47,804 nucleotides of DNA from a virus. Both the position numbers and the translations under genes were made by a program. Below are positions 17,514-45,908 of the stretch, piece after piece. Positions within the stretch are counted from its first letter, which is position 1. Each line of letters starts with the position of its first letter. Location of the stretch: the IMG/VR virus record IMGVR_UViG_3300032783_000003, positions 1 through 47,804 of that record; one strand, 5' to 3'. The notes beneath the pieces were generated by a model. It saw only the letters and a program-made list of their open reading frames with translations, made no database searches and was not told the origin of the DNA.

Positions 17514-20033
17514 TTACCCGTTGGCCGATTGACTAACCGGCGAGACGAGGAACGAGATCGGAATGAAGTAAATGGCACCCGCGAGCTTGATCTCAACGCT
17601 CACGATCATTGCCGGTCCACTAATTTGGATACTGGCGTTCTTAAAGCCCTTAGGAGCATCATCGCTAGGGGCAATCAACTTGAGCCGCAGGAAATTGGCC
17701 ATCTGGGCTTCGAGGAAGCTCAATGCAACCGCTGCGCTGACATCAGCTACAGATTGACCAACGAAGGCCTGTTCCATAGCTTGAGCAGTGCTCAATGCAA
17801 CCACGTCGCAAGCATATACAGCTTGGATCGAATTGGGGACGAAATTGTTGTCCTTACCGTAAGTCGTTTGGTCAGACACCCAAGCGAATCCACCAGTAAG
17901 CCGCTTACGAGCAGGCAACAGACCAGCCAAGAGAGCTTGCTCTACTTGACTATCGTTACCGCTATTGAAATCACCAGCCAAAGATACCACACCGTTGGTG
18001 TTGATACCCTTGTTGAAGATTGCCCGGTAGAATCCAGCAGCCTGCATACCAGCCGCAAGGCAAGCGCCCATCCAAGGTTGGAATTGAACCAAGCTACCCG
18101 AAGAGGCTACTTGTTTGAAGTCTTGGAAGGCCAAGCTCACGCGGAATGAAGCTAGGTTACCGGCTGCATTCATAGCATTGACGAAGGTATCTTCCTTCGA
18201 GCAGAAGGCTTGCCGATTCTTACGCTTCTTCAGCGTACTCATAGCAAGGCAGTGGCTCTTTGCATAAGCATTGATTGAATCAACTGTATAAGTAGAGCTA
18301 GAATCAGTTAGACCGTTAGCAACATCCAAGTTGAAATCTCGGCTCACGAGCGTGACCAAGAAGTTACCTTGAACGTTCTGAAGAGCATCGATAGCTCCAG
18401 TAAAGTCAGCATTAGACGAACCACCTCGAGCACCACCAGAAAGGTAAGCGAAAGTGGAAGTAGTCTTGGGAAGACCAGCAGTAGCTTGAGCATCCAAAGT
18501 TACCAACACAGAGTTGCTGGTAACGGTATTGAAGAACCGATAAGCATCGATCTTAATGCGACCGTTGCGGGTACCTTCTGTAGTAGCGATACCCATCGCA
18601 GTTACGTTGTCGAGAGCGCTAGTAGGAAGCTGTCCAAGGACTCCACTTCCAACAACAGAGCTATAACCAGTCTGTACGTTGATGAAGTTTACCAAGTCAG
18701 CAATGGTTGGGAACTGAGACAACTGAATGCTCAGATTTGCCCCGGATCCACCAACCACAGTCGTGGTCAATACACCGCTTGCAATAGTCAAAGTAGCAGT
18801 CGTACCCTGATAACCAACATGCATCGCAATTTCGCCACCAGCAACCAAAGTTTCGCTGATGTTGTCTAGCTGACGATTAGTCTGAAGGTTGACTTGATAC
18901 TCGAAAGCTGAATTCAAGTGGGTAGGCACGGCAACCGTGGAAACCCAAGTCACAGGAGTTGTAGTACCAAGTTGATAAGCAACTCGAGAAAGCAGGTCAG
19001 TACCGCTGAGGGTCTGAGCAAGTTCCAAAGTCTTACCAACACCATCAATGACGCTAGCCGGAGTAAGGCTAATCGTCACAGGACTGGAAGCAGTAGAATC
19101 CGAAGTAGCAACGATAGAGGTTGCCGAAACGTTTGCTGGGTTGGTAATGATCCCAACAACAGCACCAGTCTTACCGGCATCGCTGAGCTTAGTAGCTACG
19201 AGAGCAGCAGCAGTAACCGAAGTGATTATGTAAGCGCCAACGTTTGCATTACCAGCACCAGCAACCACAGACCCCATCGGGATCACCAGAGTATCACCCA
19301 CGGTAGGGGCAGTAGCCCAGTTCACAGAACGAACGAGTTGGATTACAGTTGCACCCATTCCGAGGTAGTTGGCAGTTAGAGCCAGAGTGCCAGAAACCGT
19401 AATGAGCCCACGGTCCACACCACCAGTGGCAGTTAAGCCACCAAGACCACCGATTGCAGTTACGAAAGCGGAAGGAGATTCATTGGCTGTCAGAGTGACA
19501 TCTTCACCAGCTCCACCGTTAACGCGAGCTTCAACGCTCACACTTCCAACAGGAGGAATATAGGTAAAGGCACCAGTCGTAGGAACCACTTCAGCCTGGT
19601 TTGCAAGAACCTGGAAGTAGATCAAATTCCCAAGAGAACCAAAGCTGGCATCTTGGATATGAGAATAAAGAGCGCTTGCTGTATTGAGCAGACTTGCAGA
19701 GGCCTTAGTACTTGCGTTAGTCTTAACCAAGATCACGCTAGCAGGAGCACCCTGAAGGTTAGGATCATTAGGAGCATTAACGGCATTACGGAAACCGTCT
19801 ACAAGAGGACCACTCTTGTACTTAGCCACAACTTGAGCGAGTTGATCGGGTCCAAAAGCAGCAGTAGCAGAAAGGTCTGCTTCAGCGCTGAATCTCGGGC
19901 CAGCATCAGCTTCGCCAACGAGCATAAGAACGCCCGTAGTAGCCAATCCAACACTCGAGGTTTGAACCTTGATCGTGGGATAAGCGCCTGGTATAATCAG
20001 GGTTCCGGCGTCGGTGACAAAACTTTGAGCCAT
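17514..20033 (-). CDS. Tail sheath protein
   Basis: An 839-residue protein, longer than the sheath of T4 (about 660). The N-terminus (TLIIPGAYPTIKVQTSSVGLATTGVLMLVGEADAGP) and the C-terminal quarter (GACLAAGMQAAGFYRAIFNKG, then SIQISGPAMIVSVEIKLAGAIYFI) follow the myovirus sheath layout, with the polymerising core at the ends and variable Thr/Ser/Ala-rich insertions between. Contraction of this polymer drives the tube through the host envelope. It is preceded by TAGGAG and by the hairpin at 20054-20079. A sheath means a myovirus-type particle. Confidence 0.9.
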   Translation of the reverse strand: MAQSFVTDAGTLIIPGAYPTIKVQTSSVGLATTGVLMLVGEADAGPRFSAEADLSATAAFGPDQLAQVVAKYKSGPLVDGFRNAVNAPNDPNLQGAPASVILVKTNASTKASASLLNTASALYSHIQDASFGSLGNLIYFQVLANQAEVVPTTGAFTYIPPVGSVSVEARVNGGAGEDVTLTANESPSAFVTAIGGLGGLTATGGVDRGLITVSGTLALTANYLGMGATVIQLVRSVNWATAPTVGDTLVIPMGSVVAGAGNANVGAYIITSVTAAALVATKLSDAGKTGAVVGIITNPANVSATSIVATSDSTASSPVTISLTPASVIDGVGKTLELAQTLSGTDLLSRVAYQLGTTTPVTWVSTVAVPTHLNSAFEYQVNLQTNRQLDNISETLVAGGEIAMHVGYQGTTATLTIASGVLTTTVVGGSGANLSIQLSQFPTIADLVNFINVQTGYSSVVGSGVLGQLPTSALDNVTAMGIATTEGTRNGRIKIDAYRFFNTVTSNSVLVTLDAQATAGLPKTTSTFAYLSGGARGGSSNADFTGAIDALQNVQGNFLVTLVSRDFNLDVANGLTDSSSTYTVDSINAYAKSHCLAMSTLKKRKNRQAFCSKEDTFVNAMNAAGNLASFRVSLAFQDFKQVASSGSLVQFQPWMGACLAAGMQAAGFYRAIFNKGINTNGVVSLAGDFNSGNDSQVEQALLAGLLPARKRLTGGFAWVSDQTTYGKDNNFVPNSIQAVYACDVVALSTAQAMEQAFVGQSVADVSAAVALSFLEAQMANFLRLKLIAPSDDAPKGFKNASIQISGPAMIVSVEIKLAGAIYFIPISFLVSPVSQSANG

Positions 20034-20082: not shown

Positions 20083-23000
20083 TTACTCACCCATTTCGTA
20101 GATCTTCTTAACCTTCTTTCCTTTTGGTGAAAGTTCACCCTTACCCATTAGTCGTCCAAAGATTCCTGGTTTAGCGGGAGCTTGCGGTCGGGCTGCATTC
20201 ATCACTGGACCAGCGCTACCAGGCTTCATAGAAGCAGGAGGGGCTTTGAGACCAGCCGGGGCAGCCGGTTTGAGACCTGCTCCAGGAAGCTTTACGCCAC
20301 CAGGCTTAGCTGCTGCCGGAGGGGGTTGAAATGCACCAGACATCGCAGATTGAAATGCACTAGCTCTTTCTGCATGCTCAGCAGGAGAAGGCATAGGAGC
20401 CGGAGGAGCACCGGCTCCTGGAGCTGCCATAGCAGCCTTATGGGATGCATGAGAGGCTTGAGCTTGCATATCTTTAGGCATCTTACCCATTCCACCCATT
20501 GGACCGGCTTTAGCCATAGGTGACTTAGGGGCGCTGGTAGGAACGCTGGTTCCCATATTTTGCCCACTAGGAGGCTTTGCCATTGGAGGTGTAACAGCCT
20601 TGTAAATCGGGTTATTCAGTGGATCCTTGATCTCGGTCTTATCGGGCAATTGACCGTGAATACGATCTGACTTTTGAACCAATTGAGCCTTAGGAGGAGT
20701 CTGAGGAAGTTTCTTGGCGTGTGTAATGAGATCGCCAGCTTTTCCACTGCTGCTGTGCTTAGTAGTCATAAGCCGGTTAACTGCGGCAGTATTATTATGG
20801 CTCTTATCAGGCCTATTCTCTACGAGATTAGTGGCATGACCCTGGTTGTTTTGAGTATCATTGATACTTTGCTTGGTAACAGGACCAGCATCCTTAGGCT
20901 TCTTACCAGGAACAACAGCGCCACCAGATCCACCCTTCTTATCCTTGTTGGTCTCAACAGACTTCTTATCGTCAGGAAGTTTGGATTGGGGGTGTTCGCT
21001 AGAATCGCTGTGTTTACCCTTGGAATCTACCAGTTCAGTCTTCTTAGTCTTGGCCCGGATACGAACTTCCTCACCACCACCCGGCTCTGGACTAACAGAA
21101 ACGCTAGCAGAGCCTTCATTAGAGCTATGGGAGAATGACTTGGACCCTTCAGGTGAAGCTTCATCCTTACCCATGCACTTGCACATCTTGGACATCTTGC
21201 CGCAATTCTTGCAAACCTCTGCGCCAGGAGAGTCTTCGTTCATAGCCATAGGACCAGTAGGGCCAGGAGCCATACCGGCATCTCGGCCATTACCAAATCC
21301 ACCAGTAGGAGCTACATCGGCCTTCTTGGTCTTCTTATGCTCAGGAAGCTTTCCGCCCTTATCAGCATCAATAAATTCCTTACCTACAGACTTAGGAATA
21401 CCAAGAGTAGAATGACCACTAGCAGCAGCGCCCATAGCAGCCCGTTGAGCTTGAGATACAGGTGGTTTACTAAGCGGTACACCAGTCTTACCCAACTTTG
21501 CAGCGGGAATATCTTCGATACCTTGGCTTGTAGTCAAAGCTTGGTTGTGCTTATGGCTGGGGATAATTGCCTTGCGGAGTTCCTTAATCTCAGCCTTCAT
21601 GAGTTCCCGATCTCTTAGGATCTGGATCTCCTTCTCAAAAGCTGCGATCTTCTCGCGGGTAGCCTTCATGAGGATAGTATTAACTTCCTCGGGAGTATAA
21701 AGTTTCTCGTTAGCCACTGGAGTGTCTCCTGACTTGGTATAGATTGCGGTTGGTTCGGTCTTCTTAATGGGACGCATTCCTTGTGAAGGAATACTGGGTT
21801 GAGGTCCGTATATGTCTCTTTTGTAAGCTGTTGCGCCGGGTATCGGATGCGTATAGGGATTGACACCATGTTGAGCCGGATCATTAGTACGAGGCGGTTC
21901 AACTTGATGTCTAGGAACCGGAAGAGGCTTCTGCGGACGTTTATGAGTCGTAGGAGTCATCAAGTTCGCAGGAGGCTGTTCACCTGTCGTAAGTAGCTTA
22001 ACGATAGCTCTGAGTTTACCGATCTCATGGCCCAGAGCGCTCTTCTCAGAATTGTCTTTGGATCTCTTGAGACGTTTCTCGCGATCAGCTAGAAGCTTTA
22101 GATCTCTGAATCGATCAGTCTTATTAAGATCTTCAGACTTCCTATTGAGGGTGTCGTGCATACCCTGTAAGCCCATTTGGTGGGCTGAATCTCGTACCAT
22201 TTGAAGGGCAGTAGCCAATGGAATCTTATGGGAATGGGGTTGGTAGCCCTCTTCGCTAGGTTCCGTAAACTTGCCAGTTATAGCCCGGTGGACTGCATCA
22301 TGCATTACGGTATTAAGTTCTTTATTGAAATCGGCATCACTTAGATGTACGCCAATCTGTTTGGAAAGCTCACGCTGTTTATGAGCAGCGAGCCATTCCC
22401 AATGGACAGATCGAAGAGCCTCATTGAGGGTACGATGAGTACCAAGTTTACCGATGCGCCGACCCTCCCCGTAGATCTTATTTAATTCGGGATAGGTCAG
22501 AGCATGAGCTAGCTCATGAATTTGCCGCCAGCCACGGGTGTATTCCTCATGACCAAAACTAGCACCTGAATCAGGGCTAGGATCGTAGATCATGAGGTGA
22601 CCGGTGTTGTAGTTCTTATTGGCTAGGTCCGGCTTACCGTACTTGCCACCAGCGTAGTAGGCCTTATAGCCATGGTCTTTGACAAGCTTCTCAATATCAG
22701 GAAGCTTGCCAGAGTATTTGTAGTGGAGTAGATCGGTTTTGGTCCCAGGACTTACATGTCCGTAGGGCAGAGCGAACTTATGATACGTAGCAGGTGTACT
22801 GCCAGCGGGTGCGGCTTGTTCATTAGAAGGATGTTGAGGAGGGTTCTGTGGTAGATCAGATTCATCCTTTCGTAGGCCCGGGACTCCAGGGACTGAAAAA
22901 TCTTCCTGGTGGTGTTCTGTATGCCCATCATGCCATTCATAGGCATGTGGATGAGGACGGCTTTGAGACCTGAATAGATCTGCGATAGCGTTCTTCGCCA

Positions 23001-23508
23001 AAAAGGCAGCCAATTCTGGCGTATATTCCTTCTTAGCCATACCAACGGTTGCGGCTGGTTGGACGGGTTCGAGCGGGTGAGTCTGGTTAAAATCAAAGTT
23101 GATGCGAGCGTAGCCATGATAGGGAATTGCTGTGTAGAAATCCTCGGGCGGTTGCTCGAAGTGTTCTACTGGATTTTGAGACTGAGCAGGGTTGTACTTG
23201 CCTTCGTCTGGACCATTCGTATAGATTAGCTTATGCTGACCGTTTTCGCTATGAACTACGGACTCTTGGCCGAAGAGTTTGCCAAGATGTTTCATCTGCT
23301 CAACCGTAGGATTGTAGATAATGTAACTCCGCTCAGGTTCCTTGTATTTACCTTGAGTTTCATCAAAGCGAAGACCCATTCTCTGGAGGGCTTGGCCTAA
23401 GGCTTCATGCCCGCCATGGAGCTGAGGCTGAAACAGAGGTTTTTCCCCTGACATCAGACCAAAGGTAGCTCCGCTAAAGATCGGATGTTTAGGACTGCCC
23501 GTGTACAT
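20083..23508 (-). CDS. Large multidomain virion-associated protein with HExxH motif
   Basis: A 1141-residue protein. Residues 1-110 resemble a DUF3293-like domain (ALGQALQRMGLRF, LGKLFGQESVVHS). Around residues 250-430 lies a domain with IHELAHALTYPE (H331, E332, H335), the HExxH zinc-binding site of metallopeptidases, followed by NEALRSVHWEW. Then come a coiled-coil region, a zinc knuckle (CKNCGKMSKMCKC), a long Lys/Ser-rich disordered part and a Pro/Ala-rich C-terminus. It sits between sheath and other tail genes, so it is probably a particle or injected protein. No Shine-Dalgarno is evident before the ATG. Confidence 0.75.
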   Translation of the reverse strand: MYTGSPKHPIFSGATFGLMSGEKPLFQPQLHGGHEALGQALQRMGLRFDETQGKYKEPERSYIIYNPTVEQMKHLGKLFGQESVVHSENGQHKLIYTNGPDEGKYNPAQSQNPVEHFEQPPEDFYTAIPYHGYARINFDFNQTHPLEPVQPAATVGMAKKEYTPELAAFLAKNAIADLFRSQSRPHPHAYEWHDGHTEHHQEDFSVPGVPGLRKDESDLPQNPPQHPSNEQAAPAGSTPATYHKFALPYGHVSPGTKTDLLHYKYSGKLPDIEKLVKDHGYKAYYAGGKYGKPDLANKNYNTGHLMIYDPSPDSGASFGHEEYTRGWRQIHELAHALTYPELNKIYGEGRRIGKLGTHRTLNEALRSVHWEWLAAHKQRELSKQIGVHLSDADFNKELNTVMHDAVHRAITGKFTEPSEEGYQPHSHKIPLATALQMVRDSAHQMGLQGMHDTLNRKSEDLNKTDRFRDLKLLADREKRLKRSKDNSEKSALGHEIGKLRAIVKLLTTGEQPPANLMTPTTHKRPQKPLPVPRHQVEPPRTNDPAQHGVNPYTHPIPGATAYKRDIYGPQPSIPSQGMRPIKKTEPTAIYTKSGDTPVANEKLYTPEEVNTILMKATREKIAAFEKEIQILRDRELMKAEIKELRKAIIPSHKHNQALTTSQGIEDIPAAKLGKTGVPLSKPPVSQAQRAAMGAAASGHSTLGIPKSVGKEFIDADKGGKLPEHKKTKKADVAPTGGFGNGRDAGMAPGPTGPMAMNEDSPGAEVCKNCGKMSKMCKCMGKDEASPEGSKSFSHSSNEGSASVSVSPEPGGGEEVRIRAKTKKTELVDSKGKHSDSSEHPQSKLPDDKKSVETNKDKKGGSGGAVVPGKKPKDAGPVTKQSINDTQNNQGHATNLVENRPDKSHNNTAAVNRLMTTKHSSSGKAGDLITHAKKLPQTPPKAQLVQKSDRIHGQLPDKTEIKDPLNNPIYKAVTPPMAKPPSGQNMGTSVPTSAPKSPMAKAGPMGGMGKMPKDMQAQASHASHKAAMAAPGAGAPPAPMPSPAEHAERASAFQSAMSGAFQPPPAAAKPGGVKLPGAGLKPAAPAGLKAPPASMKPGSAGPVMNAARPQAPAKPGIFGRLMGKGELSPKGKKVKKIYEMGE

Positions 23509-23556: not shown

Positions 23557-24645
23557 TTATTTCTTGGGGGTTAGAACATCTCGGTCACCGATCCAAAGTG
23601 AATCATTTGGATCAGTTCCACTGGGTAGTTTCCCAGCCCCTTCGACGCGAATAACCGACTCGAGAGCTTCCAATTTGATGTTGGTGTCTTTAGGCCAGTA
23701 TTGACGGACATTTCCAGTAATAGTGACATACCGAGAAAAGACCAATTCGGCCTCAAAAAACTCGTTTCGGTCGAAATCCGAGGAATTCACTACCGTTCGT
23801 TCAAAACCACGAGCTTCGAGCAAGGCCTGCTTGTAACGCAACAGAATGAAGACCACGATGGAATGTAGCCAAGTCAAATAGACCGGCTCACCACTGACAT
23901 GAACGCCAATTTGGTAGCTTTCACGATACCAAACGGACTCGAGCTGAGTTACAAAGACAGGAGGAGTACCTTTAAGCAAGGTTTTGCTGAAATCAGCCAC
24001 CGTACCTTGCTGTATTATAATGCTACCGTCATCAAAAACTTGAAGAATCGGCTGGGTTTTACCAGTAGCATCCACAAGCACCATAGCGGTGGAAAGGATG
24101 AGTCCACCCAGATCTGGTAGTACCATAAGACCTGTAGCGGCGTTGTAGCTAACGGGTGCAAAAGGACCAGCAAGAGCAGGCCAATCGGAAGAATTATCTT
24201 CTGTAGGTTGCCAGTGAACATCGCCTAAGGTAGTTTCAGACTCTTCAGAGCTGAGAAGCTTGATAGTGATGCAGGGAACCTTTGCTTCATCGATCCTAGG
24301 GACCATAAAGACAGGAATGTTGGTCTTTAGAAACCAATCCTTGGCCCTTTGAATGGATTTTTCACCATAGTCCTTGAGGGTCTGTTCATCTTGGGCAAGG
24401 CTGGCAAATACGTAGTCCAGGAGCTGAGGGTTAGCTCGTAGATCCGCTATAGCGGCTACAATGGCCGTACGGATAATGACATCGCTTTGATGGATGCCAA
24501 GGGCTCCTGTGGTTAGATCAACTGGCAAGGGAAGCTCCAGAGCTTTGACTAGAAGGGCTTGGCCTTCGGTAGGACTGAGTGGGACTTGTTCGTAGATCTT
24601 CTTGACTCTGAAGATGTACCCACGTGTTAAAAGTTGGACTGTCAT
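23557..24645 (-). CDS. Virion structural protein
   Basis: A 362-residue protein with a helical N-terminal third (SDVIIRTAIVAAIADLRANPQLLDYVF) and a mixed C-terminal part (LLRYKQALLEARGFERTVV, then ELVFSRYVTITGNV). I recognise no named family. Size and place, coupled by TAATG to the preceding gene in the tail operon, fit a neck, sheath-terminator or baseplate component. The start is fixed by the overlap. Confidence 0.65.
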   Translation of the reverse strand: MTVQLLTRGYIFRVKKIYEQVPLSPTEGQALLVKALELPLPVDLTTGALGIHQSDVIIRTAIVAAIADLRANPQLLDYVFASLAQDEQTLKDYGEKSIQRAKDWFLKTNIPVFMVPRIDEAKVPCITIKLLSSEESETTLGDVHWQPTEDNSSDWPALAGPFAPVSYNAATGLMVLPDLGGLILSTAMVLVDATGKTQPILQVFDDGSIIIQQGTVADFSKTLLKGTPPVFVTQLESVWYRESYQIGVHVSGEPVYLTWLHSIVVFILLRYKQALLEARGFERTVVNSSDFDRNEFFEAELVFSRYVTITGNVRQYWPKDTNIKLEALESVIRVEGAGKLPSGTDPNDSLWIGDRDVLTPKK

Positions 24646-25166
24646 TACAGGACTCGGAGGATATCATATTTAGAAAGATTGCCTGTTGTATAAGTAGCAG
24701 TGACATCCCACTCGAATAGTTTTCCTGTATTGTAGGTAGCTGGACTAGCAGCAGCCGCAGCGGTAGCATCAGTAGCATTATCATAGGCTCTAATCCTAGC
24801 TGTGAGCAGGTTGCCATCTCCATCGTAAGTCTGGAGGTCAACTACGGAGTTCTCATGGAGGAGCCCAAGGAGCCGGAGAATATTGGTTCTAAAACTACTC
24901 ACATCCAAAGCTTCGGCTTGGAACTCATATCCGGCATCCTGAGTGAAGCCAGCGTCTAAAAAGAGCTGGTATAGGACCGAGAAGTAACCTTCAGTGGCTG
25001 GTGTGTAGTTGGATTGATACAATCCACCTGATACGGCAGGTAATGAGACTGACGTTACAAAGCCGCCCGAAGAATCATAAATCTGGGCTCGGGCATACAA
25101 TCCAACCTTACCATCCGCTGCAAGGATAGAGAGAAGGACTGGTTGATTGACAGTCGCAAGAAGCAT
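24645..25166 (-). CDS. Virion structural protein
   Basis: A 173-residue protein with an N-terminal immunoglobulin-like beta pattern (ARAQIYDSSGGFVTSVSLPAVSGGLYQSNY) and an Ala-rich segment near residue 135. AGGTGG precedes the start, which overlaps the patatin gene's stop as TAATG. Likely a tail or decoration component. No family can be named. Confidence 0.6.
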   Translation of the reverse strand: MLLATVNQPVLLSILAADGKVGLYARAQIYDSSGGFVTSVSLPAVSGGLYQSNYTPATEGYFSVLYQLFLDAGFTQDAGYEFQAEALDVSSFRTNILRLLGLLHENSVVDLQTYDGDGNLLTARIRAYDNATDATAAAAASPATYNTGKLFEWDVTATYTTGNLSKYDILRVL

Positions 25167-26032
25167 TAACCACCTAGTATCCTCTTAGCGTCTTCGTATC
25201 CTACCTTTTGCATCTTCTGCAAAAGAGATGGGGTGAAGTCCAGGGCATTATCAGCCAAAACACTATCAGGACGTACGATCCTAATAGAGATGAATTTCTT
25301 ATCTGGAGCTTTACCTGCTGCAACTAGCTGGTTAACCAGATCACAGACCACAAGATCGTTCTCTTCGATCTGATCGCACATCAAGTCAATAGCTCGGGCA
25401 GCCACAGCCAAGGCCGTAGTCTTACCTGTGAAGGCTTTGGATTTATCTCCAGCAGGTGAACAAAGCACTACATCGATTTCCGTAGCACCGGCTTGAATTG
25501 CAGCCTTAAGCGGAGTAATGCTCCTAACACCACCATCCGTCCAAAGCTGACCTTCCAAAGAAATTGGAAGTAGCATTGCGGGAAATGCCGATGAAGCCAG
25601 TACAGCATCTTGGATGTTTGGGTAGGTCTCATCAAAGACCTTGTATTCACCAGTATCCAACCCAGTAGCTCCAACCCGAAGCTTCCTACCGCTATTCAAG
25701 ACTTTCTTGGGGTCCAACTTAGCGTGTACGGTATCTTGCAATGGCTTGCTATTGAAGACCGAGGGCTTCCAGAGAGTTTCAATGTAGCTCAAAGGAAACC
25801 AGGTCTTGTATACCTTGGAGTTGTCCAGTCCATTCCAAAGGTCTTCTAGAGCCTTGTATGCTTGGACTTCCTGACCGACTGGGAACATAGCGAGAAAGGC
25901 AGCATTCAATGCGCCAACAGACACACCAGCTACGAGATCGTACTTATTACACAAGTCAACCAATAGGTACTTCAGAGCACCAACTTCATAGGCTCCTTTG
26001 GAGCCACCACCTGATAGAACTAGAGCTTTCAT
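25166..26032 (-). CDS. Patatin-like phospholipase
   Basis: A 288-residue patatin-fold lipase: the oxyanion motif SGGGSKGAYEVG (residues 7-18), the nucleophile elbow GVSVG (Ser38) and the catalytic DGG (Asp166) are all present, so the Ser-Asp dyad is intact. The start at 26032 is chosen because its ATG overlaps the upstream TGA (ATGA); a longer frame from 26065 is less likely. Patatins cleave membrane phospholipids. In bacteria they are also effectors of CBASS immunity. Here the gene is embedded in the tail operon, suggesting a particle-borne or late-acting membrane-damaging enzyme. Confidence 0.9.
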   Translation of the reverse strand: MKALVLSGGGSKGAYEVGALKYLLVDLCNKYDLVAGVSVGALNAAFLAMFPVGQEVQAYKALEDLWNGLDNSKVYKTWFPLSYIETLWKPSVFNSKPLQDTVHAKLDPKKVLNSGRKLRVGATGLDTGEYKVFDETYPNIQDAVLASSAFPAMLLPISLEGQLWTDGGVRSITPLKAAIQAGATEIDVVLCSPAGDKSKAFTGKTTALAVAARAIDLMCDQIEENDLVVCDLVNQLVAAGKAPDKKFISIRIVRPDSVLADNALDFTPSLLQKMQKVGYEDAKRILGG

Positions 26033-26991
26033 GTTGCTTTGAACCTTGACAAGATCAGTGACCAAACCAATTTGAGACCGGTGTGACCTGAGTTATGAAC
26101 GGTAACTTTATGTTGCCATTGTGGAAGAAGTTTCATTGGAGCGATTGCCGGTACGGTCAAATCGAGGGCATTGGAGTTCAGCATTGGATAATTGACAACC
26201 AATCTTCCAAGTGTAACATCTACGGTATAGAGATCGTATAGCCCAGTCTGATTTGCATTAGCAGTAATAGTACCCGGACCAGTAGTAGTCTGAGCCAGAT
26301 CATAGAAACCAGTTCCACTTGTATTTGGTACTGGCTTGGCGACTGTAAGGTCTACTGTATTACTTCCATTACCAGCAGCAGGTGTAATGAGGACGTTTCC
26401 AGGCCCAGCTAGATTGCAGTTTCCTGTTCCAGGAGTCGAAGTAGTTGACGTTGCCGGAGCAAGCACTTCGTAATTGACGATATCCCCTAATACTGCCCCA
26501 GCATAGATGATGTGACCACCTGATAGATAGATACAATCATTGAAATTGAAGGTAATGATATGGTCAGTAGCCGACACATCATCACTGGAGTGAGAAAATC
26601 CCGTTCCAGCGCCTAGACCATTGGTCGGATCATCACCTGCGCCAGTGATGATTAGCTGGGTATTCGTAGGGAAGATATTTGGTAGAAAATTGGCTCTACC
26701 ATCCGAGGCCATTGGTATAACTGGTTGATTGGCACTGGGTTTGAAGTTAGTTTCAAAATCAGATTTATCGGAGTCATTCTGCTCTTGTGAATAAGATGCT
26801 TTAACCCCATCTGGAACTGTACCCTTCCATATTGTGCAAATATGTACTTCAGGCCCATCATACCCCCAAATGGTATATATAATCTCATTATCGTCATATT
26901 GTGTAACAAGGTTCTTGCTGTATTGGACAGCCTTCCAGTCTGTCCACCGATATGATCGTTGAGTAAATTGTGGTGCAAGTGCGATTGCCAT
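26029..26991 (-). CDS. Virion structural protein
   Basis: A 320-residue protein. The first 100 residues are aromatic and polar (SYRWTDWKAVQYSKN). The centre is Gly/Thr/Ser/Asn-rich with beta repeats typical of tail fibres or decoration proteins, and the end returns to an ordered segment (PMKLLPQWQHKVTVHNSGHTG). AAAGAGG precedes the ATG. Operon position supports a tail role; the exact part is not recognisable. Confidence 0.65.
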   Translation of the reverse strand: MAIALAPQFTQRSYRWTDWKAVQYSKNLVTQYDDNEIIYTIWGYDGPEVHICTIWKGTVPDGVKASYSQEQNDSDKSDFETNFKPSANQPVIPMASDGRANFLPNIFPTNTQLIITGAGDDPTNGLGAGTGFSHSSDDVSATDHIITFNFNDCIYLSGGHIIYAGAVLGDIVNYEVLAPATSTTSTPGTGNCNLAGPGNVLITPAAGNGSNTVDLTVAKPVPNTSGTGFYDLAQTTTGPGTITANANQTGLYDLYTVDVTLGRLVVNYPMLNSNALDLTVPAIAPMKLLPQWQHKVTVHNSGHTGLKLVWSLILSRFKAT

Positions 26992-30807: not shown

Positions 30808-31113
30808 ATGGACGATGCTTCCAAAAATGCCACCCGTATCCTCTACCGTTTCGTTACGGACAAGGATTCCAGACTTCAGTATGGAAGTAAGCTCCGAGCT
30901 GAGATGCATGAGGCCATCAAACGAGGGGAAGAGCCGCAAGGTTACCGAATCGAATGGATCAAATCCTGTGTCAAGGATATCTTTCAATTGCTTGGGAACA
31001 AGGCTGCTGAGTTCAATGTCCTTTATCCACAAGATCGAATCTCAAATATGGATATGCACGACGTTTTGGTTACAGCCGTAGCGAAACTCAGAAACTCTGG
31101 GAAACAGAAATGA
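30808..31113 (+). CDS. Hypothetical protein
   Basis: A 101-residue, mostly helical, charged protein (ATRILYRFVTDKDSRLQYGSK at the start, VLVTAVAKLRNSGKQK at the end). No family recognised. TACAAT and TATAAA (30773-30786) just upstream could be a -10 for this + strand gene, which diverges from the tail operon. Its stop overlaps the ATG of the endonuclease VII gene, so the two form a small + strand island. Confidence 0.65.
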   Translation: MDDASKNATRILYRFVTDKDSRLQYGSKLRAEMHEAIKRGEEPQGYRIEWIKSCVKDIFQLLGNKAAEFNVLYPQDRISNMDMHDVLVTAVAKLRNSGKQK

Positions 31114-31544
31114 GAACAAAAGCTCAAATCAAAGAATATCAAAAAGCTTACCGAGCTGCACATAGCGAAGAACTTAAGGCCTATAGAAAGGCTTATGGTA
31201 AGAAGTGGTATCAAGAGAACAAAGAGCACGTTCGATTACGCAACCTGGAATATCGACAAAGAAACAGAGAGATTTATAGAAAGGCACACAAGTCACGACA
31301 GAACAAAGGTCGTTACGGGCTGACACCAGAAGAATTCGAAAAGATTTTAGCAGATCAAAAGGGTCTTTGTTGTATTTGTGCTCAACCGATGAAACCCCCA
31401 TGCGTTGACCATGATCATAAAACCAAAAAGATTCGAGGACTCTTGTGCCGTGGGTGTAATTTAGCACTTGGATATCTACAAGATTCTACCAAGCTATTAC
31501 AATCCGCCATTGATTATCTCAAAAATTCTTCGAAATACTTATAA
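31110..31544 (+). CDS. Recombination endonuclease VII-type HNH nuclease (second copy)
   Basis: A 144-residue protein: a Lys/Tyr-rich helical N-terminus with repeated K-A-Y/Y-R-K-A units, then CCIC and VDHDHKTKKIRGLLCRGCNLALG, the zinc and DHDH active-site core of endonuclease VII. It is clearly paralogous to 6201-6683, sharing the YGL-x-EEF-KIL segment and the SAIDYL-N end. Branched-DNA resolution is the known role of T4 gp49, but duplication and AT-rich composition suggest a mobile copy. Its 3' end overlaps the convergent virion gene by 26 bases. Confidence 0.85.
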   Translation: MRTKAQIKEYQKAYRAAHSEELKAYRKAYGKKWYQENKEHVRLRNLEYRQRNREIYRKAHKSRQNKGRYGLTPEEFEKILADQKGLCCICAQPMKPPCVDHDHKTKKIRGLLCRGCNLALGYLQDSTKLLQSAIDYLKNSSKYL

Positions 31545-32346
31545 GTATTTGATCTTTAATACGATTTTCGAACTCAGCCAATGCCCAACGACTTGCCTCA
31601 TCGAAGAACTTCTTAGCCTCGAGACCAGGGTGAACCCATCGACCAGTGCCTTTGTGTTTGGAACTTGCAATCCTGAAAGTCATTACACTCTTCTTGATAT
31701 GCTCTTTACCTTGCTTGTCTTTCACCGCTGATTGGTAGACTCTCACTCCCTGTAGAAATGGAATCCCAGTAGGACCTTGACGGACTTGTCCTATTGGACC
31801 TTTACCCATCCCAGGCCCTTCGGCTGTCTTGAGTGGGGTTTTCATGATATCAAAGCTGTGGAGTAGTCCAGTTTTAGGTTTACCACCCGGACCAGTCTCG
31901 ATCTTCCCGTAGGGGATCTTCCGTCTTTTCATTTCAGCCTTAATGGTACTAGTGAGATCCTTGCCAGCTTGCGTTTGCTGAGTTTCACCTTTCTTATGTT
32001 CAAATGGAACTACAAGGTATCGGCTGCCATCCTTAGCCATCTTTGCCTTAGGTGACTTAAGCAAGAACTCGAGCATATCCATATTAGGTTTCATACCCTC
32101 TTCAATGAACATGGCGGTACGGTCCAAACCGATCACCCAAGTATCATTGTCTACCTGTTGGAAGTTCAGAGCATCGACGTACTTCTGGCGAGTGGAATGG
32201 AGCTTAGATTGGACTTCCTCAAGGATGTGAGCATGCGTTTGAGTGGCTAGGTCCCTAGCTGCATCTGCCATAGCTCGATTAACTGCTGGGCGGAAGTCTT
32301 TGACCAACTCTACTATTGGACCAATATCTAGGTTGATATAGATCAT
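31519..32346 (-). CDS. Virion-associated protein (tail-completion-like)
   Basis: A 275-residue basic protein. The N-terminus (FRPAVNRAMADAARDLATQTHAHILEEVQ) resembles the helical start of HK97 gp10-type tail-completion proteins. The middle is Lys/Gly-rich (EMKRRKIPYGKIETGPGGKPK), followed by a folded C-terminus. The start overlaps the stop of the mCpol-like gene, showing coupling. The structural role is inferred from weak resemblance and position. Confidence 0.6.
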   Translation of the reverse strand: MIYINLDIGPIVELVKDFRPAVNRAMADAARDLATQTHAHILEEVQSKLHSTRQKYVDALNFQQVDNDTWVIGLDRTAMFIEEGMKPNMDMLEFLLKSPKAKMAKDGSRYLVVPFEHKKGETQQTQAGKDLTSTIKAEMKRRKIPYGKIETGPGGKPKTGLLHSFDIMKTPLKTAEGPGMGKGPIGQVRQGPTGIPFLQGVRVYQSAVKDKQGKEHIKKSVMTFRIASSKHKGTGRWVHPGLEAKKFFDEASRWALAEFENRIKDQILISISKNF

Positions 32347-33965
32347 ACATTCCTAGAGCTGGTAGGAGTACCATCTTTTGGATCCATTACCATGTTCGCT
32401 CGGACTTGACGCCATTTGGTTTTACCAGTAGCTGGATCTTCAACTTTGATACGTCCAGCCTTATGAGCTGCATCTGGACCTGCATCGATTTGTGAACCAA
32501 CAGGAAGGATGGTTTCGTGACGACCTGTCTTACCAGGTTCAAGAGCAGCCTTTTGGACTTGACTACCATACTTCACCCAGGCTTGATGGTTTCTCAAAGC
32601 ATTCTTCATGGTATCAAACAATGCAGCGCCTCGAACCTGATCCCAAGTAATGTGACCATGGTCCGTAAGAATGCCCATTGGATCCTTGTAATCGATTTTC
32701 TGTTGATTCACGTCCGTGTTTGGATATGCCCACATGGATGCCTGAGGCTGACCTTGATGCATCAGATGGACTCGCATTAGGTTGTCATACTCCCCAGGGG
32801 AATGTGTAACATGAATACCAAACCCCATTTCTTGTCCCTGACCAGGGGCTAAATAATGGCTATAGTCGTAGACGTTGTTTCCTTTCCCAATCCCCTTGGC
32901 TGCCAGTTTAGGCTCCTCAACATTTGGTACTGACCCAGCCGCTGCTCGTTGCCGAGCTTGTGGTTCTTCAGGAGTCGGTAGGGATAGAACCTTAGTCTTA
33001 GCTCGGAACTTCTTTCCAGAGCCTTGCGGAGGATTGAGGTTAATAACATCACCCTTCTCGAGTTCTGACTTTTGAACTTCTTGCTGAGGCGCCTGGCCTG
33101 GAGAGAAGATTTCCCGAGCCATACCAATCATAGATTGGACGAGCCCTGTCAAAGACTGGTATAGATCTGGATTAGAAGCCTTGATTTGCTCAAGCTCTTG
33201 CCCATGGCCTTTAATGGCTTGTAGAACCTTCACCACGCCCTCACGAAGCTTTTCTTTAGCTTGTGGGTCTCCTGATTGGGGTTGATTTTGATCTTGTTGT
33301 TCTTGGGCTTGAGCGGCCTGGTGGAAGAGGTTCTCATAGTCAATTTGTTGGCCATCAGGACCTGGTACCGGTGGGGCAGCTTGAATAGCATTCTGGAGGG
33401 CTTCAACCTCAGAATGTTCTCCACCCATAGAAGGAGTTGCCGGAGTCTCAGGATGGTCCTGGCTAGGTCCCTGCATGCCAGCATGGGCTCCTTGGAACTT
33501 AGAGTCAGCCTTTTTAATACCCGTGCTGGGATCCAGATATTCGTCTACAACCTTTTGAGACTCGGTTTTACCATCATCTTCAACTTCAGCCAGGATCTCA
33601 TCGCAGTCTTCGGTGTAGAGCTGGATGCGATCTCCACCTTGCAATTTTGCTGCCAAGAGAGCTTTATCGGCCTCTGACAGCTTCACACCTACGCCTACGC
33701 TTACAGTAGAACCCACAGCGGTCTTGTATTCTTCCCGGATTTTTGGTAGCTCGTCGAGATGGTCGGCTTCAATCTCCATTCGCCCTTCATCTCCACCAAG
33801 AGAGATGATGAGCCCACCATGGGATTCAGCCCAAGACTTCCAGATCTCGTTGCCACGGTCGATACTCTGATGAAGCTTGCGGACTTCTTCAGGTTTATCA
33901 GCCCTAGCCATACGACCAAGCATACGACCAAGGTGGTCGGCATCAAAACTTACGTAAACCTTCAT
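32343..33965 (-). CDS. Virion-type protein with N-terminal GGDEF/Cas10-like (mCpol-like) polymerase palm
   Basis: A 540-residue protein. Residues 1-120 read like a minimal nucleotide cyclase/polymerase palm: VYVSFDADHLG (D8, D10, G13), ISLGGDEG (G57-G58-D59-E60), STVSVGVG (86-93) and ADKALLAAK (99-107). This is the order seen in GGDEF and Cas10/mCpol domains, where D8 and D59/E60 would bind metals. A Gln/Pro-rich disordered region (about 130-270), a further segment with KGDVINLNPPQGSGKKFRAK and a C-terminal domain follow. The start is ATG 33965, because the longer frame runs into the divergent gene. Cyclic-nucleotide synthesis is possible but untested. Confidence 0.7.
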   Translation of the reverse strand: MKVYVSFDADHLGRMLGRMARADKPEEVRKLHQSIDRGNEIWKSWAESHGGLIISLGGDEGRMEIEADHLDELPKIREEYKTAVGSTVSVGVGVKLSEADKALLAAKLQGGDRIQLYTEDCDEILAEVEDDGKTESQKVVDEYLDPSTGIKKADSKFQGAHAGMQGPSQDHPETPATPSMGGEHSEVEALQNAIQAAPPVPGPDGQQIDYENLFHQAAQAQEQQDQNQPQSGDPQAKEKLREGVVKVLQAIKGHGQELEQIKASNPDLYQSLTGLVQSMIGMAREIFSPGQAPQQEVQKSELEKGDVINLNPPQGSGKKFRAKTKVLSLPTPEEPQARQRAAAGSVPNVEEPKLAAKGIGKGNNVYDYSHYLAPGQGQEMGFGIHVTHSPGEYDNLMRVHLMHQGQPQASMWAYPNTDVNQQKIDYKDPMGILTDHGHITWDQVRGAALFDTMKNALRNHQAWVKYGSQVQKAALEPGKTGRHETILPVGSQIDAGPDAAHKAGRIKVEDPATGKTKWRQVRANMVMDPKDGTPTSSRNV

Positions 33966-34036: not shown

Positions 34037-34534
34037 ATGCAAGGATTCGTAGTATCACCCAACCATACACATAGAATCTTCCACCCCAAGAACTTGGCCT
34101 CCTTGGTCAAAAAGACCATCAAGAGGATTGGAACCTTACCCAAGAGCTTGAAGTTCAACGCTATTGCAGGATCTGGACACTCTGGGATCATCCTTGGGTC
34201 TATCATTAGCCACAGGCTTAAGATGCCCATCTTGGCTGTCCGCAAGAAAGGAGAATCAGCCCACGATGACTACAAGGCCAACGGCTTTATGTTCCCGGAT
34301 GAGACACGCTACCTCATCATTGATGACCTGATCGCCTCTGGGGATACAATCCACCGGATCGTCGAGAGCATCCAGAAAACCCACAAAAAGGCCGCAGAGT
34401 CTCTCGAAGTAGGGAAGATCGCCCCGGCTGGAATATTACTTTACGATAGCTGGGGTGGTCCAAAAGGTAGGATTCAGGAATTCGAGTTCGGTCCTTTGCC
34501 AGTCTACACTGTAGACATCAATCCTACCTGTTGA
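34037..34534 (+). CDS. Phosphoribosyltransferase
   Basis: A 165-residue type I phosphoribosyltransferase. The PRPP-binding loop is YLIIDDLIASGDTI (I95-D96-D97 through T104). FNAIAGSGHSGIILG and MPILAVRKKG match the strands and PPi loop expected earlier. Such enzymes attach or remove a ribose-5-phosphate from a base. Base specificity cannot be read, and the hood region is not typical of a named member. TTTGGAG precedes the ATG. It opens a + strand block rich in nucleotide-metabolism genes. Confidence 0.85.
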   Translation: MQGFVVSPNHTHRIFHPKNLASLVKKTIKRIGTLPKSLKFNAIAGSGHSGIILGSIISHRLKMPILAVRKKGESAHDDYKANGFMFPDETRYLIIDDLIASGDTIHRIVESIQKTHKKAAESLEVGKIAPAGILLYDSWGGPKGRIQEFEFGPLPVYTVDINPTC

Positions 34535-38187: not shown

Positions 38188-38262
38188 GCTCTGTTAGCTC
38201 AGTCGGTAGAGCATCCGTCTAGCTCAGTCGGAAGGTCACGGGTTCGATCCCCGTACAGGGCA
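38188..38262 (+). tRNA. tRNA-like gene with aberrant anticodon arm
   Basis: Acceptor stem GCTCTGT/ACAGGGC (38188-38194 and 38255-38261, with one T-G pair), D arm GCTC/GAGC (38197-38200 and 38209-38212), T arm ACGGG-TTCGATC-CCCGT (38238-38254) and discriminator A (38262) are all normal. The anticodon arm is not: only TCCG/CGGA pairs, leaving an 11-base loop (38218-38228) instead of a 5-bp stem with a 7-base loop. The arm contains a 12-base copy of the D-arm sequence. If C219-T220 are positions 32-33 the anticodon would be AGC, but this is uncertain. It may be a decayed tRNA. Confidence 0.7.
38195..38231 (+). repeat. Direct repeat TAGCTCAGTCGG inside the tRNA
   Basis: TAGCTCAGTCGG occurs at 38195-38206, its normal place in the D arm, and again at 38220-38231 in the anticodon arm. 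The two copies are identical over 12 bases. The second replaces the expected anticodon loop, as if a template switch during replication or an assembly artefact had copied the D arm. Confidence 0.85.
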
Positions 38263-42989: not shown

Positions 42990-44045
42990 TTACATCGGAG
43001 CTGGGCCAGCAGCTTTTGACATCTCAGGAGGGTCTTCAGACTTCTTCTCTGGCTCAGTTGGTGGTTTCTTAGGCTTGGCAACCCTTTTGCTAGCAAGAGA
43101 CTTCTTTTTGGCCTTAGCAGAAAGGTGGGCTTGCATTTCTCTTTCTTCGGCTGCGGCTCGGCCCTCTCTACGGGCTTTGATACTTTGATAGGCCGCTTCT
43201 ATTCCAGCGTGTAAACTGGCAATGCTTGCGGCCCTTGCCTTTTCGGCTGGTCCAGCAATCTGCGTACCCTTTGTACCAGGAGGGAAAACTCCGGGAGCTG
43301 GTAGCGGAGGGGTGTACTTAGTAGCAGATTGAGAGCCTATTGCACCTGCAATTGTAGCCGGTTGCCCGAGGTCCTGGGCTGGGGAAACCCGATCTTTAGG
43401 GAATGGAACTACGTTACCCTTCTGCATTGGTACGGGAGAGGCAGACGAGGCAGTAATCCCACTAGGAATATTAGGACCACCGAAATCCTTCTTCATTTTA
43501 GATTTTGACTTACTGAGCATTTCGCTCTTAGCGACACTATGCTGTCCATCGCCTTCACTCTGGAGAAGGAATGCATCTCCACGGTGTGGCTTGAACTTAT
43601 AGAACTTGTCTTGCTTCTCAGCCAGAGCTTGAACATCAGTTGGCACTGCCCCTACAGGATCGTGTCCTAGAGCTTTTAGGTGGAGCTGATACATGAGACC
43701 ATGCTTGTGGGCTTCATCATGACTTCCAGCACCTTGAGCAGCTTTTAGACCTGCCAAGTGGAATGCAGCGGCCTCACGGTGCTTGTCCTTCTTGTACTCG
43801 TGGTGGGCTCGGTGTTCAGCGTCTTCTCGAGTCATCCGGTGTTTGAATTCATAGGTAGCAGCTCGCTGTTCGAGATCGTGTTTATCTTCAGATTGGATAA
43901 TCCTACGTCCATTCCAATGCGGAATAGATTTTAAGGCTTCTTTACTCATTTGATCACCTACTAATGGAAGTCCTATTGGCTTACCTGTGAAAGTATGTTT
44001 ATGTGTTTCGTGAAGTATCTTATCTTTATCGTTAGGTGACATCAT
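42990..44045 (-). CDS. Virion-associated protein, Lys-rich
   Basis: A 351-residue protein. The N-terminal half is rich in His, Lys and Glu helices (EHRAHHEYKKDKHREAAAFH, then LAGLKAA), like a structural or scaffold part. A Ser/Lys stretch (SEMLSKSKSKMKKDFGG), a Pro-rich part and a basic C-terminus follow. I place the start at ATG 44045, with GAGG seven bases upstream. Transcribed with other virion genes; no named family. The GIY-YIG gene overlaps its start. Confidence 0.6.
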   Translation of the reverse strand: MMSPNDKDKILHETHKHTFTGKPIGLPLVGDQMSKEALKSIPHWNGRRIIQSEDKHDLEQRAATYEFKHRMTREDAEHRAHHEYKKDKHREAAAFHLAGLKAAQGAGSHDEAHKHGLMYQLHLKALGHDPVGAVPTDVQALAEKQDKFYKFKPHRGDAFLLQSEGDGQHSVAKSEMLSKSKSKMKKDFGGPNIPSGITASSASPVPMQKGNVVPFPKDRVSPAQDLGQPATIAGAIGSQSATKYTPPLPAPGVFPPGTKGTQIAGPAEKARAASIASLHAGIEAAYQSIKARREGRAAAEEREMQAHLSAKAKKKSLASKRVAKPKKPPTEPEKKSEDPPEMSKAAGPAPM

Positions 44046-44652
44046 CTCCATACCTCAATTTATATCCACCAGTATGGCTGCGCCACCCTTTCAAAACCTT
44101 ATATACATTACCAATATGTAAGCCTAAAGTTCTACAAACTTCACTAATACTCTCGTAAACAGTTCCATTTTGATCAATAACAGGTCTCTTTTTATGTGCA
44201 ATGGACAGTTTCTTTCTGGTGACGGTAGACATTGCACCCTTCTTCTTTCCTTTACGAATGGCAGACATTTTCGCAAACAATTCGGGAGATCGCACCTTGC
44301 CTTTATTAGAAGATCCTATCTTAGCTCTAGTCTCAATAGAGACTTTACGACCCATAGTGCCCTCTCCTCCATCTGTTAGATTTGTAAGTGGGCACCCCAT
44401 TTTCCGAAAATAAGCTATCCAGAAAATTTCAGCATCACATAAAATTTCAGGTTCAGTGAACTCCTGCAATATAACTGCATTGGGTACTAGATTTTGAGCT
44501 TTAAGACTACTAAGCCAATGGGTTCTATAATTATGCGCCGGATCAACTAGATGCTCATTTAGCCTTTTGGCGAGCTTATTTTTAGTTTTACCTACATATC
44601 TAAGCTGCCCATCTCGAGGATCAACTAATCCATATATCAAGAATCGATTCAT
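44032..44652 (-). CDS. GIY-YIG homing endonuclease
   Basis: A 206-residue protein. The N-terminal GIY-YIG nuclease (FLIYGLVDPRDGQLRYVGKT, with K-R-L-N-E-H after it) is followed by NUMOD3-like repeats (SIETRAKIGSSNKGKV, TRKKLSIAHKK) and a NUMOD1-type DNA-binding module (SISEVCRTLGLHIGNVYKVL). This is the layout of free-standing phage homing enzymes such as those in T4-like phages. GGAGG precedes the ATG; the start overlaps the GNAT gene stop. AT-rich compared with neighbours, so a recent insertion is likely. Confidence 0.9.
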   Translation of the reverse strand: MNRFLIYGLVDPRDGQLRYVGKTKNKLAKRLNEHLVDPAHNYRTHWLSSLKAQNLVPNAVILQEFTEPEILCDAEIFWIAYFRKMGCPLTNLTDGGEGTMGRKVSIETRAKIGSSNKGKVRSPELFAKMSAIRKGKKKGAMSTVTRKKLSIAHKKRPVIDQNGTVYESISEVCRTLGLHIGNVYKVLKGWRSHTGGYKLRYGDDVT

Positions 44653-45908
44653 CAGCGCCTCCGAAAAGTCTTCATTAATGCCTTGATTGCGTCTGGATCC
44701 ATACCAGGCTTGAACTCAAGCACATAACCATCTTTGTAGGCTGTAGTTTTGATATTTTTAGAAAGGTCAGCAAAGCAAATACAGCCCTTAAACTTGTGAT
44801 TCTGAAACTGTTGACCGCCACAAATCTGGCAGCTCTTCTCAGACTCTGATTTGCCTACTGAGAAACTCGGTGGTTTTTGCTGCTTGGGTTGTTTTTGTGG
44901 TGGTGTTGGAGCTTCTGGACCTTGTTGAGCTTGAGGCTTTTGAGATTGCCCAGGTAGTTCGACCTTACCAAATTGAGGATTCGCTCTATTACCTTCCCAT
45001 AAGGCTCGGCCCATTGCTGTTTGAGTGTGACTTGGCAGTATTTTCTTACCCGTTAGTTTTTCGGCATAAGCATATATGGCACTAGCCAGCCCTTTGCGAC
45101 GGTGATGAGGTACCACGTCTACTCCATCAGGGATTAGGTTACCTCCATAATGGCTAAACCAGGCCTTACCAGCATGGCTTCCATCAGGAGCTGAAGCTAC
45201 AACCTGTGTTACGAAGTCTCCATTGCCTAAGTCACGATGTTGGTGACTTATCTGATACCCAGCACTCGGATCAAGAACCTTTTTGCTAAGCTGAGGAATG
45301 AAGAAACCCTTATAACGATTTTGATGCCAATCTGCGATAGTGCCAGCATCCTTAAGGGAACTGATACCATGCTGAACTTGAGAACCAGTTCGAGTATGTA
45401 CCACCGAATACGGTCGATCCGGCGCACCAGAGTGCTCAACATGATAACCTCCATGGGTAGTCATCCTTTGGGGTTTTAAAGCACCAGGAGACTTTAGTTC
45501 ATGCATTAGAACTTGAGCCTTGGTAAGGGTATCAATCGACTTACCTAGTTTGACAAGTACAGTATCCCTTACTTCTGCATCTAGCCTTTGGGGTTCTAGG
45601 CCTAAGGCCATAGCTACGCCGGCTGCTATGTGGTAAATCGAGGCTTTCTCGAAGCTATATACACCATCAGTTAGACCGATACTTCCAGAAAAGCCTTCCT
45701 CAGACTTTTGGAATTGAACGTAGGAGTTTTCGATACCAGGAATTGGACCTTCATATTCGTGTTCAATAGTAAAGCTAAGCCATCCCACGATAGTACGTGG
45801 AATGAGAATGTCGGCAAGCTGGGGCTCACGCTCAACGGCTTTCTTTAGAGCTTTAGCTCCATCCAAGCCTAAGGCTGCGGCTAAGAATTGTTGTCCCAAA
45901 TCTGCCAT
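44652..45908 (-). CDS. Virion-type protein with GNAT-like domain
   Basis: A 418-residue protein. An N-terminal domain of unknown fold is followed by a region with VDVVPHHRRKGLASAIYAYAE (about residues 265-285), matching GNAT motif A (V-x-P-x-x-R-x-x-G-L-A), where the R/Q-x-x-G/A loop binds acetyl-CoA. A Gln/Pro-rich linker and a zinc knuckle (CQICGG, later CICF) end the protein. It could acetylate a protein or be a retired enzyme used structurally. GGTGGAG precedes the ATG. Confidence 0.6.
   Translation of the reverse strand: MADLGQQFLAAALGLDGAKALKKAVEREPQLADILIPRTIVGWLSFTIEHEYEGPIPGIENSYVQFQKSEEGFSGSIGLTDGVYSFEKASIYHIAAGVAMALGLEPQRLDAEVRDTVLVKLGKSIDTLTKAQVLMHELKSPGALKPQRMTTHGGYHVEHSGAPDRPYSVVHTRTGSQVQHGISSLKDAGTIADWHQNRYKGFFIPQLSKKVLDPSAGYQISHQHRDLGNGDFVTQVVASAPDGSHAGKAWFSHYGGNLIPDGVDVVPHHRRKGLASAIYAYAEKLTGKKILPSHTQTAMGRALWEGNRANPQFGKVELPGQSQKPQAQQGPEAPTPPQKQPKQQKPPSFSVGKSESEKSCQICGGQQFQNHKFKGCICFADLSKNIKTTAYKDGYVLEFKPGMDPDAIKALMKTFRRR

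Follow-up and report, generated by a model that had tools for sequence, protein, structure and literature searches.

A predicted mCpol palm domain at the head of a late-operon protein in phages related to Myxococcus phage Mx1

mCpol was shown in 2025 to be the signal-making enzyme of Panoptes immunity (PMC12657230, PMC12657218). As a dimer, it makes c-di-AMP constitutively, with no trigger needed, and the effector is restrained by this product (PMC12657230, PMC12657218). The catalytic residues of KpOptS are D6 and D57 (PMC12657218), and the ATP-selectivity residues of mCpol are S30 and N34 (PMC12657230). Polyvalent proteins are multidomain late-operon proteins with swappable ART, NUDIX, GNAT, kinase and GGDEF modules (Iyer et al. 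2017, PMC5512222). They have been predicted to enter the host together with the DNA, and interference with host nucleotide responses has been suggested for them (PMC5512222). T4 Alt and the N4 virion RNA polymerase are enzymes that are packaged late and ejected with the DNA (summarised in PMC5512222). mCpol is not mentioned in the same polyvalent survey (0 occurrences; PMC5512222), and no description of a phage-encoded mCpol was found in the literature searched.

In this study, we analysed a gene on a viral DNA stretch of 47,804 nucleotides (IMG/VR record IMGVR_UViG_3300032783_000003; hereafter, the window). A sequence-only reading had proposed that this gene encodes a virion-type protein with a GGDEF/Cas10-like (mCpol-like) polymerase palm, followed by a Gln/Pro-rich linker and a C-terminal domain. 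The parts of the gene and the related features are listed in Table 1.

Identity of the palm and layout of the gene

The mCpol gene was translated from the ATG at 33965 on the minus strand to 32343, giving 540 aa; an in-frame GTG lies farther upstream, at 34070. When the translation was checked, D8, D10, G13, GGDEG (57-61), VSVGVG (88-93) and ADKALLAAK (99-107) were all found at the positions given previously. Pfam PF18182 (mCpol) matched aa 4-116 with E=5.4e-10 and 40.1 bits against a cut-off of 26.4, and 11 of 12 family members matched the same model at E<0.01. PF00990 (GGDEF) had no match in the 540-aa protein or in the window. The NCBIfam mCpol model NF033576 gave 21.9 bits, under its 40-bit cut-off, and PHROGs held no family for the 540-aa protein. 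Therefore, the palm protein would be called hypothetical by routine annotation.

The phage-family profile was compared with the PDB. Two solved mCpol/OptS chains, 9nwn and 9mnr, were matched with E values of 5.6e-13 and 1.2e-12, and GGDEF domains were matched weakly (5euh, E=0.008). AlphaFold2 prediction of aa 1-135 with 13 related sequences gave a pLDDT of 93.6 and a pTM of 0.84. The top Foldseek matches of this model were the OptS structures 9pd0, 9mnr and 9nwn (E 5e-8, TM up to 0.85), which include forms with a nucleotide analogue and forms lacking one, followed by GGDEF domains and Cas10 palms (TM ~0.7). Pfam Cas10-Cmr2_palm2 matched the isolated domain at E=1e-4, and a matching uncharacterised protein, A0A6J5L1I5, was present in a viral structure library. 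A tree of the phage palms with OptS gave no resolution at ~115 columns. These results indicate, from sequence profiles and a predicted fold, that the window protein belongs to the mCpol domain family. The N-terminal palm proposed earlier was thus supported by Pfam, PDB profile, AlphaFold and Foldseek alike, and the proposed AlphaFold check gave a palm fold nearest to OptS, then to GGDEF and Cas10 palms.

The alignment with KpOptS was ungapped in the relevant part, placing D8 at D6 and D59 at D57, and the catalytic set was complete in the window copy. In the profile alignment, mCpol S30 and N34 corresponded to H32 and D36 of the window copy. Since H32 and D36 occupy the ATP-selecting positions, the base specificity, substrate and product of the phage palm are not predictable.

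The remainder of the protein also agreed with the sequence-only reading, in that translation and synteny confirmed a gene of the late operon whose product has a linker rich in Gln and Pro and, at the C-terminus, a conserved part. In a model of the C-terminal 311 aa, the three-helix segment was confident and the remainder was unreliable (pLDDT 56). The three-helix module had a weak Pfam Ddi2_HDD match in one relative (L011), and both it and the C-terminal module were confined to the mCpol gene within the fetched loci. The tripeptide KSE occurred 60 times in the family proteins compared to 10.5 expected from shuffling (~6x), often just after the helical module. The cargo-type late proteins of the window were enriched in KSE, and none was present in the gp10-like, terminator, sheath or tube protein. 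KSE may be a processing (maturation-protease) or module-junction signature; that it serves as a site for the prohead protease is speculative.

Table 1. Coordinates of the mCpol gene, its parts and related features (window positions unless a locus is named)
Feature	Position	Strand	Basis and remarks
Whole mCpol gene, 540 aa: palm / linker / three-helix module / variable / C-terminal module	32343..33965	-	Translation; directly ahead of gp10-like gene in relatives
Predicted mCpol palm domain, aa 1-117	33615..33965	-	Pfam PF18182, PDB profile matches, AlphaFold, Foldseek
D8-A-D10, first metal-binding motif; D8 = KpOptS D6	33936..33944	-	Ungapped profile alignment to 9mnr/9nwn; catalytic D6 per PMC12657218
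GGDE turn, aa 57-60; D59 = KpOptS D57	33786..33797	-	Profile alignment, PMC12657218, family alignment
K107	33645..33647	-	Present in 19/19 both-Asp domains, 2/17 others
Gln/Pro-rich linker, aa 118-232	33270..33614	-	Composition of aa 131-232; length varies in relatives
Three-helix module, aa 233-287	33105..33269	-	In all family members; helices pLDDT ~88
Variable, largely disordered region, aa 288-486	32508..33104	-	Inserts differ among relatives, e.g. DUF5661
KSE motif, aa 299-301, after helical module; candidate processing or junction site	33063..33071	-	Family enrichment
C-terminal module, aa 487-540 (LPVGS..D...IKV...W..VRA..VM...G.P.SSRN)	32343..32507	-	Conserved; weak beta prediction
HK97gp10-like neck/tail-completion gene	31519..32346	-	PHROG 16819 E=7e-21; weak phrog_27 'tail completion or Neck1'; next gene in relatives
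Tail-terminator-like protein	23557..24645	-	SP10_terminator E=0.06; homologue in nearly all relatives, syntenic
Tail sheath, homologue of Mx1 WNM70095 'tail sheath protein'	17514..20033	-	E=7e-215
GGDEF-domain protein, Mx1 WNM70324	L089:17173-17904		Also L108, L109, L111-L114 in relatives

Place in the late operon and in related phages

Among 50,697 phage records, Myxococcus phage Mx1 alone matched the palm protein, and its product (WNM70340) is annotated 'hypothetical protein'. Viral contigs scanned directly with the 540-aa protein gave no match, nor did genome contigs scanned with the palm. The next gene, which is HK97gp10-like and better conserved than the palm protein, was used as the family bait. 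Bait scans of the viral contigs gave 48 loci, many from genomes of ~165-180 kb, and those of the genome contigs gave two phage-like contigs binned into MAGs. The family comprised ~50 related phage contigs in total, including Mx1. Where the contig was long enough, the gene upstream of the bait was nearly always palm-bearing. The Armatimonadota 'mCpol' matches with the best alignment to the phage profile were rejected as close relatives, as the palm there lies deep inside a 560-730 aa frame and is Cas10-like with GGDD. These results show that the earlier identification was right and that the mCpol head is a family trait, not a one-off.

The mCpol gene ends within the start of the gp10-like gene, with 4 bases shared between the two. 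The downstream order was as in Mx1, a contractile-tailed phage: tail-terminator-like protein, DUF3293/AdoMet-lyase-like protein, sheath and tube. A 1,141-aa late protein at window 20083-23508 (-), with a DUF3293/S-AdoMet-lyase-like N-terminal part, is conserved in Mx1 and other relatives and is possibly an anti-restriction cargo. Another late protein, at window 44652-45908 (-), contains a GNAT-like stretch that is absent from the Mx1 homologue, an inserted enzyme module; it matches the GNAT protein of a relative (L124, E=2e-10). Free-standing genes of endonuclease VII type (window 31110-31544, +) and GIY-YIG/I-HmuI-like type (window 44032-44652, -) lie beside late cargo genes, and a tRNA-Ser gene (anticodon GCT) is found at window 38188-38262 (+) within a plus-strand gene block.

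In the same late region of Mx1, one protein of 1,479 aa combines ART-PolyVal, NUDIX and GNAT domains, and another of 619 aa gave matches to PI3/4-kinase, HipA-like and, weakly, GNAT domains. Their layout is that of polyvalent proteins. ART-PolyVal was found in 4 of the 20 records searched. Several disparate modules within one late-operon protein, as in polyvalent proteins, were found both in the palm gene and in the GNAT, AdoMet-lyase-like and HEAT fusions of the relatives.

Mx1 and most of the longer relatives also have a separate GGDEF protein, whose gene immediately follows that of the presumed prohead protease, or is joined to it, and precedes that of the major capsid protein. By alignment reading, its first Asp and GGDE were intact in 16 of 17 phages, including those with a degenerate or absent mCpol. 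Such a protein, with its site intact and its gene next to those of the prohead protease and capsid, may suggest that the palm, together with the GGDEF protein, is a cyclase steering host physiology or infection timing (e.g., through the cyclic dinucleotide signals of myxobacteria or other soil bacteria) and has no part in counter-defence. In line with this, c-di-GMP regulates motility and life on surfaces in a general way. We consider this explanation quite unlikely, because what is known of the mCpol branch comes from immune systems, and because a palm that is so often lost, deleted or replaced resembles a piece in an arms race and not a housekeeping signal.

No OptE-like partner was seen in the window; the neighbours there and in the relatives were structural and other phage genes. 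Relatives of T4 Acb1/Acb2 were not found in 20 related records, in searches run without a positive control. A Patatin-like phospholipase is encoded in the late operon at window 25166-26065 (-) (PF01734 E=2e-28; PADLOC phospholipase effector models E=3e-13). This gene was rejected as a CBASS-type partner, as it was present in 0 of 26 other related records. An OptS gene was found on a conjugative Sulfitobacter plasmid near a DncV-like CBASS synthase gene. This location and the homology to OptS would agree with a phage-borne Panoptes-like defence against competing phages. Such a defence appears extremely improbable, since the palm is part of a virion-operon gene in which it is joined to modules of late proteins, and since the adjacent genes are structural ones and not an OptE-type effector.

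Retention, loss and exchange of the palm

The sequence-only reading had named the loss of D8 and D59/E60 in homologues as one of two results that would speak against it. We compared 36 palm domains differing by >10 percent. Both catalytic Asp were present in 19 of 36 domains, including the window copy, and lost in 17, including that of Mx1. The foreseen loss was therefore seen in about half of the relatives, and the site was intact in the window and 18 other domains. Hence, catalysis is not needed throughout the family.

We then examined residues outside the catalytic Asp that defined the two groups. K107 was present in 19/19 both-Asp domains compared to 2/17 others, E60 in 19/19 compared to 7/17, and G13 in 18/19 compared to 3/17. 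W45, G51 and G91 were equally conserved in both groups. On a tree built from the neighbouring genes, at least 8 state changes were required on the best tree, and 5 were forced by well-supported branches. K107 tracked the Asp state in ~4.6 of 5 independent pairs with none contrary, a number of pairs too small for significance. The state changes were read as losses because regaining a complete site is unlikely, the tree itself being blind to gain versus loss. The complete intact site persists across the whole tree. As the site residues were kept or lost together, an enzyme of conditional use fits better than a purely structural domain.

The dN/dS ratio was 0.14-0.16 in two degenerate-palm pairs and 0.09-0.44 in intact pairs. 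The degenerate palms are thus under purifying selection, and a non-catalytic role must exist as well. Alternatively, the palm could be a sponge or sensor that binds cyclic nucleotides instead of making them, with the degenerate versions as the working form. The degenerate copies keep the fold, and degenerate GGDEF domains are known receptors. Nevertheless, this explanation is very unlikely, as the catalytic residues are present in the window copy and in 18 further distinct domains, and we know of no precedent for an mCpol sponge.

The palm was also deleted, swapped and fused. In two loci of one clade (L027 and L028), the palm was deleted and the helical and C-terminal modules were kept; no second palm copy was found in these partial records. 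Two other loci (L048 and L049) matched by 96.6 percent over 9.6 kb downstream and by 100 percent over 305 bases upstream, whereas the first ~91 palm codons were only ~40-50 percent identical in DNA. Both palms had the full catalytic set. A 930-base ORF, HNH-like by eye and without a Pfam hit, lies directly upstream of the L049 palm, and homing with co-conversion is possible as the cause of the replacement. In more distant phages, a palm with Cas10-type GGDD forms the C-terminal part of other late proteins, where it sits behind an AdoMet-lyase-like domain (L126), GNAT (L124) or HEAT-like repeats (L131). These proteins lack the neck-protein modules. The swapping and the fusions to other late proteins indicate that the palm is a mobile module of late proteins.

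These observations bear on whether the palm has a structural or assembly role in a neck/head-completion protein, as a dimerisation head in which catalysis is a relic. The constant place before the gp10-like gene, the purifying selection on the fold after site loss and the degenerate state of 17/36 domains would all agree with such a module. We regard it as unlikely, but as deserving weight. A complete site is present in 19/36 domains across the tree with co-varying residues, the palm can be deleted (L027/L028), and it is also found in quite different late proteins without neck modules. The 'captured structural domain' that had been offered as an alternative fits poorly with the intact lineages and with palm fusion to other late cargo proteins.

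Proposed role and comparison with known systems

We propose, with about even confidence, that the gene encodes a late polyvalent-type cargo protein with a catalytically competent mCpol head, which is probably delivered by the virion and most likely aimed at host nucleotide-based immunity. From our analysis, a polyvalent cargo enzyme is most plausibly the mode of action of the palm protein. Its gene position and architecture suggest that the protein enters the virion, and the palm would then be delivered with the DNA, or act late. By analogy with established mCpol biochemistry, the delivered palm would dimerise and make a cyclic dinucleotide, probably from ATP, and we infer that the window copy can make such a product. 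As mCpol biology suggests, this nucleotide would act on host nucleotide-sensing defence. It may be a ligand holding Panoptes OptE-type effectors off, or it may swamp CARF, SAVED or CBASS sensors. The same nucleotide would help against some defences and set off others, so that the activity would be kept in some hosts and lost in others. In particular, it could trigger CBASS effectors, which would explain the repeated loss of the active site.

A more specific version is rather unlikely. A particle-delivered Cas10-type cyclase would flood the cell with a nucleotide restraining Panoptes effectors, a separate GGDEF cyclase would be made beside the prohead protease, and the inactive versions would be remnants, or would act as sponges in cases in which CBASS is triggered by the signal. 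Homology is the one genomic observation that points to a Panoptes link of the phage palm.

If this more specific version were true, the phages would counter a defence by providing an immune signal, where destroying it would be the alternative. The presence of a swappable mCpol head in proteins of the virion operon suggests that, besides binding or degrading the signals of nucleotide immunity, phages may also make such signals to counter it. The pattern in which the palm is kept, inactivated, swapped or moved is what one would expect if it were part of an injected weapon. Among otherwise comparable phages of the family, active, inactive, deleted and swapped alleles are available from nature, and Mx1, which has been isolated, puts packaging within direct reach of testing. 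With the parallel GGDEF gene of the capsid operon, two genes for signalling-nucleotide enzymes are present in the assembly operons, and one may ask why.

The closest described system is OptS/mCpol of Panoptes (KpOptS; PDB 9mnr, 9pd0, 9nwn; PF18182). It shares with the phage palm a single Cas10-like palm of ~115 aa and the D6/D57 equivalents, and it is the top match in both sequence and fold. OptS is free-standing and encoded beside a 2TM-beta effector, whereas the phage palm heads a multi-module late protein and has no such partner. The phage palm has the canonical GGDE where KpOptS has AADG, and H32 and D36 where OptS/mCpol has S30 and N34. A Panoptes operon combines mCpol with a 2TM-beta, CARF or SAVED effector, and this combination was absent from the window and the relatives. 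These results demonstrate that the window locus is not a Panoptes system.

Cas10 (Csm1/Cmr2) palms belong to the same palm superfamily. However, Cas10 has two palms and lies in a Csm/Cmr locus, whereas the phage gene has one ~115-aa palm, no HD and no CRISPR context. GGDEF diguanylate cyclases share the fold, the GGDE turn and the ADxAxxxAK helix; the phage palm is shorter (~115 aa compared to ~160 aa), its profile is far closer to mCpol (6e-13 vs 0.008), and the protein gave no match to the GGDEF family. T4 Alt and the N4 virion RNA polymerase are precedents for ejected late enzymes with other folds, and the packaging that was shown for them is inferred for the phage palm. With the polyvalent proteins, the palm protein shares the late-operon multidomain architecture with swappable enzyme modules.
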